From contig NZ_CP006270.1 of the NCBI RefSeq assembly GCF_000737575.1, positions 1,429,163 through 1,493,162 on the forward strand: DNA of 64,000 nt, given 5' to 3'. The notes below the pieces were generated by a model. That model had not been told where the DNA came from and did no database searches. It saw only the letters and a list, made by a program, of their open reading frames with translations. Position numbers and translations under genes: made by a program. This document shows positions 48,060-55,447 of the stretch, in pieces (position 1 is the stretch's first letter; each line of letters starts with the position of its first letter). Source of the stretch: Synechococcus sp. KORDI-49. Its GTDB lineage: Bacteria; Cyanobacteriota; Cyanobacteriia; PCC-6307; Cyanobiaceae.

Positions 48060-48147
48060 GGATGCGGAGCAGTGCGTGGGTCATGGTCGCAAAAGGGGGC
48101 CTCAACCGGGAAATCCACATAAATTGGGTCGGACGATTGGTGGATCC

Positions 48148-49413
48148 GTGCTCAGACGCAGCCATTGGGCAATGTTGGCCGCCTTTGCAGGCATCGGTCT
48201 CAGCATGAACGGATGCGGCACCAGCAACGCCGGCATTCCGGTGGTTCTGAGAGTGGCAAAAACAGTCGGCATTGAAGAAATTGTCAACGCCGAGGACTAC
48301 GACGAGCTCCAATCAAAAATTCAAAGCGTGATCCGGGAATTTCGTGATTACGACTCAAGCATCAGAATCAAACTAGCCCTCTACGACAACGAAAATTTCG
48401 TCCATCAGATCAGCAACCAAACCTGGGCCGGATTCGGACCAGACATCATCATTACGGACAGCAACACAACTCACGCTCTTCACGAAAAAGGATTAATTGA
48501 TACCGTTGAACTCACAACACCACAGCGAGAGGGCACTCCAGATCACCTTTTCCAACTGGTCACCAATCGCCAGGGAAAACTGTTAGGCAGGCCCGTGGCC
48601 CAGTACATCCAAGTCGCCTGTTACAACAAGGAGAAAATAAAAAACCCGCCAAAAACCAAGCAGGAGTTCGGCAACGATATTCATAAAGACACAACGTTCG
48701 GGATGTCACTTAACCTGAAAGACATTTTCTGGACGACTGAATTGTACGGAGCCGAACAACCTATGGCTTCAGCGATGCGCGGAACAGCACCCGACGCAAA
48801 GTCCAAGAAGAAGATAACTGATTGGCTTCACTGGCTTGAACACATGAGCTATCAACAGAATGTACGATTTATGAATAGTCAACAATCTCTGCGCTCCTCT
48901 TTTCTGGAAGGCAATCTCGACTGGATCACATGCTGGAGCTCAAGCCTTCCAGAACTTCGCAGAAAGCTGAAAGACAAGCTTGGCGTTTCACCTTTGCCAA
49001 AAAATATCAACAAGGACAAATTCCAATCCATCACAAAGCTCCAAGTCTGGTCACTGGGCCTTAATTCCAGCAAAGCTCAACGAGAGAAAGCTCTCGGGCT
49101 GATGGATTTCATCACGAAGCCCTGGGCCCAGAAAACCTATGTAATGGAAAACCGAAATAGCTTTCCTGTAAATAAGAATGCCGCCAAGATTGTCGCTTCA
49201 AAAATCGTGGGAGGAGAACAAGCCTTAGCTCAATTTGAACTTCGAAACGGCAGCGACGAACTTCGGAGAAGCTTCACCAACTCGGTGGTTTTCAGAGATC
49301 CCGCTCGATACAAGGTGATCACCACAGCACTGCAACGAACGATTTACGACATTAAAACTCCGGAAGAAACAACAGATCTCATCATCGAAACCATGATGGA
49401 GGAAAAATCATGA
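48148..49413 (+). CDS. Extracellular solute-binding lipoprotein
   Basis: A 421-aa family 1-type solute-binding protein. The N-terminus is a basic n-region (LRRSHW), a hydrophobic core and a Cys23 in the lipobox-like SMNGC, suggesting lipid anchoring; Asn at -2 is unusual. The mature part has the pattern of ABC-type sugar/osmolyte-binding proteins (GPDIIITDSNTTHALHEKGLIDTVEL, then WSLGLNSSKAQREKALGLMDFITKP). No ABC permease or ATPase is nearby. Instead it overlaps an MscS gene by four bases (ATGA). The DNA is AT-rich (26 G/C in the 60 bases from 48661). The GTG at 48148 is preceded by GGTGGA. Confidence 0.82.
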   Translation: MLRRSHWAMLAAFAGIGLSMNGCGTSNAGIPVVLRVAKTVGIEEIVNAEDYDELQSKIQSVIREFRDYDSSIRIKLALYDNENFVHQISNQTWAGFGPDIIITDSNTTHALHEKGLIDTVELTTPQREGTPDHLFQLVTNRQGKLLGRPVAQYIQVACYNKEKIKNPPKTKQEFGNDIHKDTTFGMSLNLKDIFWTTELYGAEQPMASAMRGTAPDAKSKKKITDWLHWLEHMSYQQNVRFMNSQQSLRSSFLEGNLDWITCWSSSLPELRRKLKDKLGVSPLPKNINKDKFQSITKLQVWSLGLNSSKAQREKALGLMDFITKPWAQKTYVMENRNSFPVNKNAAKIVASKIVGGEQALAQFELRNGSDELRRSFTNSVVFRDPARYKVITTALQRTIYDIKTPEETTDLIIETMMEEKS

Positions 49414-50735
49414 TTCAAGGTATTTTTGTTGAAGCCATTGGCTGGCTGGGTTATCTACAACGCGGCGAAGTTATTCTGCAGATCATTCTGATCGTCAGCC
49501 TTCTGGTTCTGGAAAACCAGATCGTCAAACAACTGCACAGAATTCAGACGATTGGTGTGCGCCGAATCGTCACACCAGGCCTTGCCTTCCTGAGCGGATT
49601 CCTCCTGGGAGCCCTGGGGCTGCCCGGACATTTCCTTAGCTTTCTGGGAGGTCTTTGGCTGCTCTGGCGTGCGCTGGTTCCGATCAAAAACCTGGTCAAG
49701 GAAAGACATCCAAGATGGCCAGTTGACGAGATCGATCAGACGATCCTGAGACCCGTCGTTCTCGTGGTCATCATCCTGACGTTTTTTCAGATGCTGGGCA
49801 GCCGGGAAGCTTTGGCGATGCTCCCGATCGGAACCGTGTTCGGCGTTGTGCTCACCATCGGCAAATTGCTCACAGCCTTGATGTTGGGTTACGCCATTGT
49901 CACGTTGTCCAGACAGCCGGCAGGACTGCTCTCCGGTTTCTTCACCCAGTTCTTCGGGCTCAGCAAGCAGAGCAGAACCGCCTTGGAAGTCATCCTCCAA
50001 TACAGCCTGATCGGGGTGGGAATCGTTGTTGTCGCCAATTATCTCGGCATCAACGGAGCCGCCATGGTGACGATCGCTGGAGGACTGTCTGTCGGTATCG
50101 GCTTCGGCTTGAAGGAAATCATCTCCAACTTCATCAGCAGCATCTGGATGTTGTTTGAAGGAACCGTGAGACCTGGTGAAATCCTGATGATCAATGGTGA
50201 CCCCTGCACCGTTCGAAAGCTGGGGCTGAGAGCCACACAACTCAAACGCGGACGGGATGGCGCAGAATTGCTGATCCCCAACCAAACGTTCTTCACCCAG
50301 GAAGCGGAATCGTTCACGGCTCAAGAGACGTCACGTCGCGGTGCCGTGGATGTTGGAGCTGCCTATCACCATGAACCGGGCCGCGTAATCGACATTCTTG
50401 TCGAACTCGCCAAAGAACATGAAAAGGTTCTGCCGTACCCAGCTCCAGCAGCCTTCACAACCGGTTTTGCGGATTCTTCCATCAATTACAAAGTTCTTTT
50501 CTGGGTCAGGAATCCCCTGGAAGCATTTCAGGTTGAAAGCGATCTTCGCCAGGTGATCTGGAGCCGCTTCGAAGAAAACGAAATCGGAATTCCCTTTCCG
50601 CAACGGCAGGTTTATCCAATGGAGTGGCCACCTTCCAAACAGCAGACACTCGAGATCAGACATCAAGACGACCGGAGCCTGCTTCCCGAGCAGCAGGAAG
50701 CAGAGCCACCGATCAACGATCAGCAGAAGGAATGA
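49410..50735 (+). CDS. MscS-family mechanosensitive channel
   Basis: A 441-aa protein with an N-terminal membrane region of four or five spans, then the MscS pore helix and beta domain at about residues 215-300 (GLSVGIGFGLKEIISNFISSIWMLFEGTVRPGE, then LIPNQTFFTQE). The cytoplasmic domain ends in a proline/glutamate-rich tail. MscS channels open under membrane tension and release osmolytes. It starts inside the end of the solute-binding gene, so the two products are made in a coordinated way. The function of the pair is inferred, not known. Confidence 0.9.
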   Translation: MIQGIFVEAIGWLGYLQRGEVILQIILIVSLLVLENQIVKQLHRIQTIGVRRIVTPGLAFLSGFLLGALGLPGHFLSFLGGLWLLWRALVPIKNLVKERHPRWPVDEIDQTILRPVVLVVIILTFFQMLGSREALAMLPIGTVFGVVLTIGKLLTALMLGYAIVTLSRQPAGLLSGFFTQFFGLSKQSRTALEVILQYSLIGVGIVVVANYLGINGAAMVTIAGGLSVGIGFGLKEIISNFISSIWMLFEGTVRPGEILMINGDPCTVRKLGLRATQLKRGRDGAELLIPNQTFFTQEAESFTAQETSRRGAVDVGAAYHHEPGRVIDILVELAKEHEKVLPYPAPAAFTTGFADSSINYKVLFWVRNPLEAFQVESDLRQVIWSRFEENEIGIPFPQRQVYPMEWPPSKQQTLEIRHQDDRSLLPEQQEAEPPINDQQKE

Positions 50736-52145: not shown

Positions 52146-53051
52146 GTGGCATGGACCGCTGAGGACATCCCCTCGCAGGAGGGTCGCCTTGCCCTGGTCA
52201 CCGGCGCGAACAGTGGCCTCGGGTTGGCAACCATCCAGGCACTCGCCGCCCGTCAGGCAACCGTGATTCTGGCCTGTCGCTCAAGCAGGAAAGCCGAAGC
52301 AGCACAGCAACAGCTGCAGGATCAGGGGCTCAGCCGACTGGAGCTGCTGGAGCTTGACCTGGCCGACCTGAGCAGCGTGCAACGCGCTGCCGAAAGCGTT
52401 CGCGATCGCTACGGCCATCTCGATCTGCTCATCAACAATGCCGGGGTGATGGCGCCCCCTCGCCGCACCACCGTTCAAGGTCATGAACTTCAGTTCGGCG
52501 TGAATCACCTGGGGCACCAGGCCCTCACCCAAGCGCTGCTGCCCCTGATGGAGAACCGTCCGGATGCCCGCGTGGTGACCGTCACGTCGGGGGCCCAGTA
52601 CTTCGGACGGATCCACTGGGATGATCCGAACTGGGAACAACGCTATGAGCGCTATGGCGCCTATGGCCAGAGCAAACTGGCCAACGTGATGTTCGCTCTG
52701 GAGCTGGACTCCCGCTTGCGTCAGCGCAGCAGCACCATCCGCTCCCTGGCTGCCCACCCCGGTTTGGCTCGGACCCAGCTGCAACCCACCGCCATCGCCA
52801 GTGGCGGCAACGGAGCCGAAGCCCTGGTCTACCGACTGATGGATCCCCTGTTCCAGAGCGCTGCCATGGGAGCCCTGCCCCAGCTGCATGCCGCCACTGC
52901 CCCTTCGGCCCAGGGCGGAGAGCACTACGGACCGAACCAGCTCGGTGGCCTTCGAGGCCACCCCAGCCGCTGTCGCGTCGCCCCGACCGCCAACAATCCA
53001 GTGGAACGCGAACGCCTCTGGAACCTGAGCGAACAGCTGATTGGTGCCTGA
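52146..53051 (+). CDS. Short-chain dehydrogenase/reductase
   Basis: A 301-aa SDR. The dinucleotide motif is TGANSGLG, followed by NNAG and the catalytic Ser and YGQSK (Tyr-x3-Lys). The general form is that of retinol dehydrogenase/protochlorophyllide-reductase-like SDRs, so an oxidation/reduction of a lipophilic alcohol or ketone is likely, but the substrate cannot be given. The start is GTG 52146. Its stop overlaps the next gene. Confidence 0.88.
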   Translation: MAWTAEDIPSQEGRLALVTGANSGLGLATIQALAARQATVILACRSSRKAEAAQQQLQDQGLSRLELLELDLADLSSVQRAAESVRDRYGHLDLLINNAGVMAPPRRTTVQGHELQFGVNHLGHQALTQALLPLMENRPDARVVTVTSGAQYFGRIHWDDPNWEQRYERYGAYGQSKLANVMFALELDSRLRQRSSTIRSLAAHPGLARTQLQPTAIASGGNGAEALVYRLMDPLFQSAAMGALPQLHAATAPSAQGGEHYGPNQLGGLRGHPSRCRVAPTANNPVERERLWNLSEQLIGA

Positions 53052-55035
53052 CTCCGGCACGGACTTCCAACGGCTCGCTCCCTACGTACTGGGGCGGGCG
53101 CGCCGAGGGGTGGTGGGATCCAGTCGCTATGCCCAGCGTCTGCGCACCGCCGTGCTGGAGGCTGCCCGTGACGCTGATCGCCGGCCCGTGCTGATCAGTG
53201 GTGAACCTGGTCTCGAGAAGGACAATCTCGCAGCTCTCATCCATTTCGGCTCCGGGGAGCGCCGTCGGCTGCTGCTGCGCCTGGACACGGCGGATCTGCA
53301 GGGAAGTGGTCGCCAGCTTCTCGACCATCTGGGTGAGAACAGCCTTCTGGTGAGTGGCATCGATCGGATGGAACCATCTCTGCAGCAGCGGCTGGTGGCC
53401 CTGGCCCGCGGTCAGGAGCCGGGATTTCAAGGGCGGGTGATGTTCACCAGTGAGAGCCCCGTCCCATGCCTCGATGCCATCGTGATCCCCATCAGGGTGC
53501 CTCCTCTGCGGGTGCGCCGCTCCGACCTGGGGGACTGGCTGCGGTACCAGCTGCGGCTGCAGAGCACGAATCGCGGCTGGAGCCGAGCACCGCAGCTGCC
53601 GGACTCGATCGTGCGTCGCCTGCAGAACCACGACTTTCCAAACAACATCCGCGAACTGGAACATCTGGTGGATCGGGCCCTGCGCCAGGCCCATCAGGAC
53701 AGTCAGGTGGGGCAGACCAGCGCCGCAGCACCGCCGACGGTGTTGCCGGAAGCCGTGTTCTGGACGAACCAGCGGGAACGGAGGCTTCGTTTTGACCTCT
53801 GGCGCTGGAAACCGCAACTGCGCGAATGGATGCGTTCCCCCTCTCTTTGGAACGGTCTGTTGTTCGGCCTGGTGAGCTGGTTGTTCGTGGCGGCCAATCT
53901 GGCGCTCTGGCTCGGCCCCCAGAACCGCGCTGAGAATCCGGTTCTGATCCTGTTCTGGGCCTGGTGGTGGCCGCTGATCCTGCTGACCTACCCGCTGGTG
54001 GGTCGTCTCTGGTGTGCCGTCTGCCCCTTCATGGTCTGGGGTGAGATCGCTCAGCGCCTGACTCCCTGGCGCAAGCGGGTCTGGCCCCATGGCGACAGTG
54101 ATCGCTGGGCCGCTCCGCTGCTGGCGGCGGGATTCGCCGCGATCCTGGTGTGGGAGGAGGTGTGGAATCTGGAGGACACGGCCTGGCTGAGTAGTTGTCT
54201 GCTGCTGCTGATCACCGCCGGTGCCGTGCTGGGTTCCCTGGTGTTTGAAAAGCGCTTCTGGTGCCGGCATCTCTGCCCCGTGGGCGGCATGAACGGCCTG
54301 TTCGCCAAACTCTCGATCCTGGAACTGCGGGCTGAAGCGGGCACCTGCGGAGGCAGCTGCAGCAGCTACGCCTGTTTCAAGGGGGGGCCTGCGGACGGCG
54401 AAGGGCTGGCCAGCCAGGGCTGTCCTCTGGGCACGCACCCGGCTCACCTCAGTGACAACCGCAACTGCGTGCTGTGTCTGACCTGCGCACAGGCTTGCCC
54501 GAACCGTTCCGTGCAGCTGCGGCTGCGACCACCTGCCGCGGACCTTCAGCCGCGCATGCAGCCCCCTGATGGGGAGCGAGGTCTGATCCTCGTGCTGGCC
54601 GGCGGCATCTGCCTGCATCACTGGCAGCGACTGCTCGGCTGGCTGCCCTTGACTCCTGACTCACTTCAGGAGGGAGCTCTGCTTCCACGGCTGAGCATCG
54701 CTGTGCTGGCGCTCGCCCTGCCCGCCATGGCGGGACTCTGGCTCGACCGCCGCTGGCTGTACGCCGGCCTGCCATTGCTCTGGTCGCTGCTGCTGGCGCG
54801 CCATCTGCCCCTCGGCATGGGTGAAGGCGGCACGCTGCTGCCTGAAGGCTGGCCGCAATGGCAGGCGGACCCGCATGTGATCGGATTTGCACAGACCCTT
54901 GTGGTGGTGATCGGATGGGCCGGAGCAGTGGCGCTGTCGCAGCGGCTGATGCGATCCTTCGACCGGAACTGGCGGATCGGCATGGCTGGGCTTCTCTTGA
55001 TTAGCGTCGGCGGACGCTGGCTGGTGGCGCATTGA
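53044..55035 (+). CDS. AAA+ (degenerate sigma-54-activator-like) / membrane polyferredoxin fusion protein
   Basis: A 663-aa fusion. The N-terminal ~220 residues have the order of an NtrC-type AAA+ domain, but Walker A reads GEPGLEKDN (about 53-61), Walker B reads SLLVSGIDRME with the acidic pair lost, and the GAFTGA loop is absent. The C-terminal half is a membrane protein with about seven spans and iron-sulfur cysteines: CAVCP and CRHLCPVGG in the NapH/NosR style, then CGGSCSSYAC, GCPLG and CVLCLTCAQACP. It probably moves electrons through 4Fe-4S clusters, while the AAA+ part may be structural or regulatory. Start GTG 53044 overlaps the SDR gene by eight bases; a TTG at 53041 is an alternative. 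Confidence 0.85.
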   Translation: MPDSGTDFQRLAPYVLGRARRGVVGSSRYAQRLRTAVLEAARDADRRPVLISGEPGLEKDNLAALIHFGSGERRRLLLRLDTADLQGSGRQLLDHLGENSLLVSGIDRMEPSLQQRLVALARGQEPGFQGRVMFTSESPVPCLDAIVIPIRVPPLRVRRSDLGDWLRYQLRLQSTNRGWSRAPQLPDSIVRRLQNHDFPNNIRELEHLVDRALRQAHQDSQVGQTSAAAPPTVLPEAVFWTNQRERRLRFDLWRWKPQLREWMRSPSLWNGLLFGLVSWLFVAANLALWLGPQNRAENPVLILFWAWWWPLILLTYPLVGRLWCAVCPFMVWGEIAQRLTPWRKRVWPHGDSDRWAAPLLAAGFAAILVWEEVWNLEDTAWLSSCLLLLITAGAVLGSLVFEKRFWCRHLCPVGGMNGLFAKLSILELRAEAGTCGGSCSSYACFKGGPADGEGLASQGCPLGTHPAHLSDNRNCVLCLTCAQACPNRSVQLRLRPPAADLQPRMQPPDGERGLILVLAGGICLHHWQRLLGWLPLTPDSLQEGALLPRLSIAVLALALPAMAGLWLDRRWLYAGLPLLWSLLLARHLPLGMGEGGTLLPEGWPQWQADPHVIGFAQTLVVVIGWAGAVALSQRLMRSFDRNWRIGMAGLLLISVGGRWLVAH

Positions 55036-55039
55036 TCGG

Positions 55040-55447
55040 ATGACGGACACCCTGCCCGCCCCAAGCACCCGTCAGAGAGCCTTGCTCGCCGCCCTCAGGG
55101 ACTGCGGTGACGAAATGAGCGGGCAGCAGCTGCACCGCAGCCTGGCTGGTGGCCCCTCAGCCATGGGTCTGGCCACGGTGTACCGCAACCTGAGACAGCT
55201 GCAGCAGAAGGGGATGGTGCGCTGTCGCCATCTGCCGACCGGCGAGGCGCTGTATGCCCCGGTGGAACAGGACCGGCACCACCTCACCTGCGTGGACTGC
55301 GGAGAAACACGACCGCTTGATCACTGCCCGATCCATGGCCTGAGCGTGCCCCAGGACACACAGAAGGATTTTGAACTGCTGTTTCACACGCTTGAATTCT
55401 TCGGCCTCTGTCAACGCTGCCGGGATCGGCAGCAGCTGCCGTCATGA
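55040..55447 (+). CDS. Fur-family transcriptional regulator
   Basis: A 135-aa repressor of the Fur/Zur/PerR group. The N-terminal winged helix holds GLATVYRNLRQLQQKG, and the C-terminal domain has the metal-site HHLTCVDCGE and the structural-zinc CxxC pairs (CVDC, CQRC). Which metal or signal it senses cannot be decided from sequence. It lies four bases after the fusion gene, so it may control, or respond to, that operon. Confidence 0.93.
   Translation: MTDTLPAPSTRQRALLAALRDCGDEMSGQQLHRSLAGGPSAMGLATVYRNLRQLQQKGMVRCRHLPTGEALYAPVEQDRHHLTCVDCGETRPLDHCPIHGLSVPQDTQKDFELLFHTLEFFGLCQRCRDRQQLPS

Follow-up and report, generated by a model that had tools for sequence, protein, structure and literature searches.

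A conserved cyanobacterial fusion of a sigma-54-activator-type AAA+ domain with a NapH/NosR-like membrane iron-sulfur module

NapH, NosR and RdhC have four transmembrane helices and two CX3CP motifs in common, as set out in a section of PMC5928378 in which quinol oxidation is proposed for NapH, and NosR and RdhC, once thought to be regulators, are assigned to electron transfer. The fusion protein described here resembles them in having four helices with two CX2-3CP motifs and then a Cys-rich 4Fe-4S segment on the same side, but it differs in having no FMN domain by Pfam, in carrying an extra C-terminal membrane part and in scoring far below the NapH and NosR cut-offs. With the sigma-54 activators (bEBPs, such as FleQ, FlrC, NtrX, PspF and NorR) it shares an AAA+ core plus lid, the fold, a GxS segment and the P-loop Lys, whereas GAFTGA, the Walker B Glu, the Arg-finger stretch and the HTH are missing, the domain is joined to a membrane module and the genome has no RpoN. 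A passage in PMC3162934 gives sigma-54 and its activators as absent from 29 cyanobacterial genomes, and one in PMC12316311 names two cyanobacteria as having rpoN. No paper on the fusion family was found in the open-licence PMC literature.

Within the window (the whole stretch of 64,000 nucleotides that was analysed), the fusion gene lies at 53044..55035 on the + strand, overlaps the stop of the upstream SDR gene and encodes 663 amino acids from a GTG start; TTG at 53041 is an alternative start, and the frame is free of stops to 55035 (+). The protein begins with a bEBP-type AAA+ core (aa 18-140, 53095..53463, +), which has the P-loop GEPGLEKDN at aa 53-61 and Glu137 at the sensor I position, followed by the AAA+ lid (AAA_lid_14, aa 147-222, 53482..53709, +). 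Four transmembrane helices (about aa 263-423, 53830..54312, +) then carry a CX2CP (C324, C327) and a CX3CP motif (C407, C411) on the predicted cytosolic side, and lead into a cytosolic iron-sulfur segment (aa 424-505, 54313..54558, +) with conserved Cys at 435, 439, 444, 460, 475, 478, 481 and 485. The C-terminal membrane extension of about five helices (aa 506-663, 54559..55032, +) is the membrane part with the lowest conservation.

Confidence in this anatomy is high. The first-pass annotation had described one fused gene rather than two split by a frameshift, with an NtrC-type AAA+ module joined to a NapH/NosR-like membrane module, and all of this held up. Both halves of the single frame exceed Pfam cut-offs: Sigma54_activ_2 (aa 24-140, 33.1 bits against 25), AAA_lid_14 (aa 156-218, 28.7 against 27) and, in two stretches, Fer4_5 (32.5 against 22). 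PF00158 reached 15.4 bits against a cut-off of 20.2 in the window protein and was above it in 6/6 relatives scanned; across the window's genome its matches were three other proteins (frames of 925, 912 and 853 aa), the fusion gene not being among them. In the AlphaFold model (mean pLDDT 77.9, pTM 0.61), residues 18-243 match the bEBP AAA+ domains of FleQ, DmpR, FlrC, NtrX and PspF in the PDB, and VIA Z values between the AAA+ part and bEBP structures were 14-17 over about 205 residues (rmsd 2.8-4). The same domain order was found in homologs 62-91% identical to the window protein (55 aligned sequences) and in distant ones at 41-50%, indicating that it is due neither to a frameshift in the window's genome nor to chance. 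Pfam detected no HTH, Fis-type or other, in the window protein (E 10) or six relatives (E 1), and no DNA-binding domain in any of these seven family members. PADLOC matched the lid alone, to RtcR-type regulators, while PHROGs gave two weak matches, both to families of unknown function.

When cyanobacterial genomes were surveyed for the same fusion, a check that the first-pass annotation had proposed, a match at E 1e-20 or better was found in 103 of the 386 sampled genomes of the phylum and in 61 of 142 genera. The lid family PF25601 was detected in 107/386 genomes, of which 102 belong to the window's class; every one of the 108 lid matches in that class overlaps a fusion-family match, so that no bEBP descendant other than the fusion was detected there in this sample. 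In Synechococcus elongatus, a control genome, Fer4_5 and AAA_lid_14 each gave a match. The five lid-positive genomes of the phylum that fall outside the class have other lid proteins. Three genomes of the phylum from a non-photosynthetic class (G106, G321 and G325) encode proteins of 660-778 aa in which one frame has two matches to the bEBP lid. Among the carriers, the lid was found in 102 of 103, the exception being G257, in which the copy (L153, 7880-9854) is split into overlapping frames of aa 1-467 and 451-662 by a frame change or sequencing error. Two MAGs (WTFZ01 and NHBY01) each had two different copies on separate contigs (L034 and L077; L084 and L086) and are perhaps mixed bins, and a record titled as a Bifidobacterium breve MAG (L107), which contains the picocyanobacterial fusion gene at about 62% identity, is probably a misnamed bin. 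A tblastn search of 50,697 phage records gave no match to the fusion protein. Of 72,556 plasmid records, 11 matched: nine over the membrane part only, and two, from cyanobacteria, over the AAA+ part as well.

RpoN (PF04552) had no match in the window's genome, the place where the first-pass annotation had suggested looking for it. A classical sigma-54 role is thus impossible there, as had been argued, and by membership the fusion protein is not a sigma-54 activator. The broader premise, that cyanobacteria lack sigma-54, fits nearly all sampled genomes but needs qualifying, since RpoN exceeded its cut-off in 2/386 (62 bits in G125, a carrier, and 23.1 bits in G224) and two cyanobacteria are named in the passage cited above. 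The G125 match, to the RpoN DNA-binding domain, lies in a 207-aa frame (G125:C1:411956-412339), which may be a fragment or an acquired gene. None was above cut-off in the 80 of 103 carriers checked, a set to which G125 does not belong.

Motifs were compared in 116 aligned sequences, comprising 111 that we call type A (77 near and 34 far) and 5 of a sister family, type B. The GAFTGA-like pattern occurs in 0/116, and alignment to PspF and NorR of E. coli shows its segment to be absent. The Arg-finger stretch is missing in type A aligned with the same two proteins, and column 105, the place of the Walker B Glu, never has Glu among the commonest residues of any group in the 116 sequences; column 104, the Walker B Asp place, is Asp in 64/111 type A. 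The lack of a GAFTGA loop and of a Walker B acidic pair, both noted earlier from the single sequence, is therefore borne out. The Walker A had been called broken and is better described as altered. In the GEPGLxKDN loop, Gly53, Glu54, Lys59 and Asp60 are present in 111/111 type A sequences, and Pro55, Gly56, Leu57 and Asn61 have conservation of 0.98, 0.99, 0.98 and 0.97. Since the Walker A of PspF and NorR ends in GKE and not GK[ST] in the alignment, GEPGLEKDN departs less than it seems, and its chief loss in the window protein is the Gly to Glu change just before the Lys. That position (58) is Glu in 92 and Gly in 15 of the 111 (14%; 6/77 near, 9/34 far), the remainder being Asp, Gln or Ala, and it changes at least 8 times on the membrane-module tree.

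At least 98% conservation was reached at 22 positions of the type A core. These make up 15 of 25 positions in nucleotide-site segments against 7 of 98 others (8/16 against 7/98 with the P-loop left out), a descriptive comparison because the segments, whose roles in PspF we take as given, were picked after conservation had been seen. The alignment suggests an AAA+ site that has been retained to bind and has lost what hydrolysis and contact with sigma-54 require. The domain might instead be an active ATPase that remodels a different target, in the membrane or in regulation, as the invariant P-loop Lys, the 15/111 sequences that have Gly58 and the GKT P-loop of 4/5 type B members would allow. We consider it very unlikely, given that no Walker B Glu is present, that type A is without the Arg-finger stretch, that the sensor I Asn of PspF is replaced by Glu at position 137 in 111/111 type A, and that the sensor II Arg is found in only 81/111.

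The membrane iron-sulfur module is the most constrained part of the protein. Twelve Cys, including C324/C327 and C407/C411, are present in 116/116 sequences, except those at 444 and 460 (115 each), and mean conservation is 0.80 for the membrane part and 0.82 for the Fe-S segment, compared with 0.64 for the AAA+ core. Values of pN/pS, calculated from eight sequences of the window's genus and near it with pS near 0.6 and so partly saturated, were 0.39 for the AAA+ core, 0.31 for the lid, 0.15 for the first four helices, 0.10 for the Fe-S segment and 0.28 for the C-terminal helices. All parts are under constraint, and the redox core most. The AAA+ core is thus the fastest-changing soluble part, as a relic merely yet to be deleted might be, and the gene is split in one genus member (L153) and cleanly lost from others. 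Nevertheless, the lid is kept in all but one carrier and the 22 strictly conserved core positions include a derived motif absent from PspF and NorR, and a relic is extremely improbable. With the P-loop Lys and Asp retained throughout type A, the AAA+ part is not decaying.

Counts of K plus R in the loops (8, 4, 11 and 2 inside against 1, 0, 1 and 0 outside) follow the positive-inside pattern and predict an N-in topology, with the Fe-S segment and the two Cys motifs facing the cytosol. The protein has the arrangement of the NapH/NosR type, in which four helices with two CX2-3CP motifs are followed by two motifs for binding 4Fe-4S, the clusters themselves being predicted. E. coli NapH aligns to it at E 7e-06, and the NapH/MauN model TIGR02163 matches aa 312-492 with 42 bits, far below its cut-off of 213; the NapH and NosR models are likewise far below theirs. 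Pfam gave no covalent-FMN domain even at E 10; nap, nos and rdh genes were not seen around the fusion gene, and within the window's genome Fer4_5 matches the fusion protein alone. A fold search with the membrane module found no PDB entry at E 0.001 or better (best Foldseek E 1.8, VIA Z at most 6.2), and the Fe-S loop was poorly modelled (pLDDT under 50 at 431-475).

The part of the window protein at aa 257-565 also matches, at 24-30% identity, polyferredoxin-only proteins of about 450 aa from Azospirillum, Deinococcus and haloarchaea, annotated as "4Fe-4S binding protein"; two scanned by Pfam (L159 and L162) had no AAA+ domain. In Azospirillum the gene for such a relative lies beside FTR1, and in Natronorubrum beside metal transporters, as would fit a protein that reduces metals or assists their transport, comparable with a copper/iron reductase or with FtrD of FtrABCD. 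FTR1 (PF03239) occurs in 69/83 carriers outside the window's family, and a Zur-like gene adjoins the window gene. However, the FTR1 permease was not found in the window's genome or in 20/20 carriers of its family, 38 genomes have FTR1 without the fusion gene, and the association over the whole sample (counts 69, 34, 38 and 245; Fisher p about 1e-23) is confounded by lineage, for which reasons it was rejected as evidence of an FtrD role. With no recurrent metal gene nearby in 37 outgroup loci, a metal role seems improbable.

In the window's genus the gene order is SDR, fusion gene, FUR-family gene and metal-hydrolase-like (MBL) gene, all adjacent, an arrangement seen in 8/83 near loci plus L190 and L191. 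The SDR-family oxidoreductase gene (52146..53051, +) is directly upstream and is a neighbour in this genus only. The FUR-family gene (55040..55447, +) is directly downstream, and its product has Asp78, His80, Cys84, Cys87, Cys96, Cys124 and Cys127, which line up with the metal-site residues given for the Synechococcus Zur SYNW2401 in a portion of PMC9337993, each one place further on. The FUR protein is therefore very likely Zur, judging from these residues. A zinc hypothesis drawn from this neighbour was nonetheless rejected: SDR and FUR are adjacent in 7/7 relatives without the fusion gene (four genus members and three other family members), and a FUR gene is near the fusion in 0/37 outgroup loci, pointing to a local arrangement and not a reliable functional link. 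No recurrent partner of type A was found in these 37 loci; the most frequent family among the neighbours, which by eye is a SasA-like kinase, occurs in 7/37 at varying places. Elsewhere in the window (48118-50735, +), the gene for an SBP_bac_8 solute-binding protein shares 4 bases with that for an MscS-type channel; in near relatives the two are 37-53% and about 60-64% identical, respectively, so that the sensor half of the pair changes faster.

Most members outside the window's family have an additional CRP-like domain at the N terminus. An extension of more than 110 aa, aligning as one family, is present in 36/39 outgroup sequences, and cNMP_binding was above cut-off in 6/6 members scanned outside the family. 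A profile search, in which both positive controls were found, detected no such domain near the window gene or in 83/83 near loci, 6 of the 80 named ones having fewer than 600 bases upstream. The domain is without the Arg of the cAMP signature. Two regulator-derived domains, CRP-like and bEBP, thus precede the Fe-S module in these outgroup sequences, as would suit a redox-sensing signalling protein in which the state of the membrane Fe-S module changes the AAA+ (and CRP-like) module and makes it hold or free a regulator; that the window copy adjoins zur would also suit it. This is the main rival reading, if on balance unlikely, as no member scanned has a DNA-binding domain, the CRP-like domain lacks its Arg and is missing in the window's family, FUR is not a neighbour in any outgroup locus, and SDR-FUR is intact in 4/4 genus members without the gene.

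Type B is like type A in combining CRP-like, AAA+ and polyferredoxin parts with a common membrane module, but differs in a GKT-type P-loop (in four of the five aligned, which are L145, L146, L148 and two plasmid copies), in a cysK neighbour and in forming one separate clade beside type A on the membrane-module tree, a quick tree with long-branch warnings that was used for the A/B grouping only. In 7/12 type B loci cysK lies downstream at a distance of one or two genes. On plasmids of Aulosira and Pseudanabaena (L157 and L158), islands that contain the type B fusion with cysK after it lie near genes for psbA and petC, L158 having DsrE and rhodanese genes too, and HdrA- and HdrC-like frames with other Fe-S proteins were seen by eye at L194 and L195. 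From its neighbour genes, we infer a sulfur or low-oxygen setting for type B. Database names for type B are "nitrogen assimilation regulatory protein" or "cyclic nucleotide-binding domain-containing protein", and names such as the former are probably misleading.

The domain order, the AAA+ fold, the loss of residues for sigma-54 contact and hydrolysis, a retained altered P-loop and near-invariant Cys are shown for the fusion, a distinct conserved family that probably moves or senses electrons. As to the mechanism, our confidence is moderate to low. The leading candidate, to which we give slightly less than an even chance, is an electron-transfer protein of the NapH/NosR kind that sits in the membrane, faces the cytosol and has a bEBP-derived pseudo-ATPase as its cytosolic regulatory module, and we rank it somewhat above the redox-responsive scaffold or signalling part that the first-pass annotation had suggested. 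The membrane module would take electrons from the quinone pool or give them to it, with the 4Fe-4S centres as the route to a partner in the cytosol. The AAA+ module may bind a nucleotide or a partner without ATP turnover and so set the assembly or activity of the electron path. Support for the electron-transfer reading comes from the near-invariant Cys together with the high conservation and lowest pN/pS of the membrane/Fe-S part, from the cytosolic topology, the NapH HMM match and the E. coli NapH alignment, and from the P-loop Lys and Asp of type A with strict positions clustering at nucleotide-site segments. The type B place beside cysK suggests a metabolic rather than regulatory setting, no DNA-binding domain was found in the seven members scanned, and NosR and RdhC were reassigned to electron transfer in the cited section of PMC5928378. 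The electron-transfer reading is weakened by the low scores against the NapH, NosR and NapH/MauN models, by the lack of a conserved redox partner gene near type A in the outgroup loci, and by a membrane module that matches no solved structure and has a poorly modelled Fe-S loop.

A more specific and rather improbable version would have the sole surviving cyanobacterial line of sigma-54 activators converted, a single time, into a gate that senses adenylates and acts on a membrane electron carrier. A pseudo-ATPase ring would bind ATP or ADP via the derived P-loop and let electrons pass, or stop them, between the quinone pool and an Fe-S acceptor in the cytosol. If this were true, the energy state of the cell would control an electron branch of the photosynthetic membrane.

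Three things escaped the first-pass annotation: the wide distribution of the family, the third, CRP-like domain that its members usually carry, and a sister family whose P-loop is of the GKT type. Reviews of sigma-54, in the passage with the 29 genomes, list cyanobacteria as without the factor or its activators; here a clear activator descendant, the sigma factor gone, is conserved inside a membrane redox protein in well over a third of the sampled genera. It is a defined example of exaptation of a transcription ATPase, and as only a single gene is involved, knocking it out could expose an electron branch or redox sensor so far undescribed in photosynthetic bacteria.
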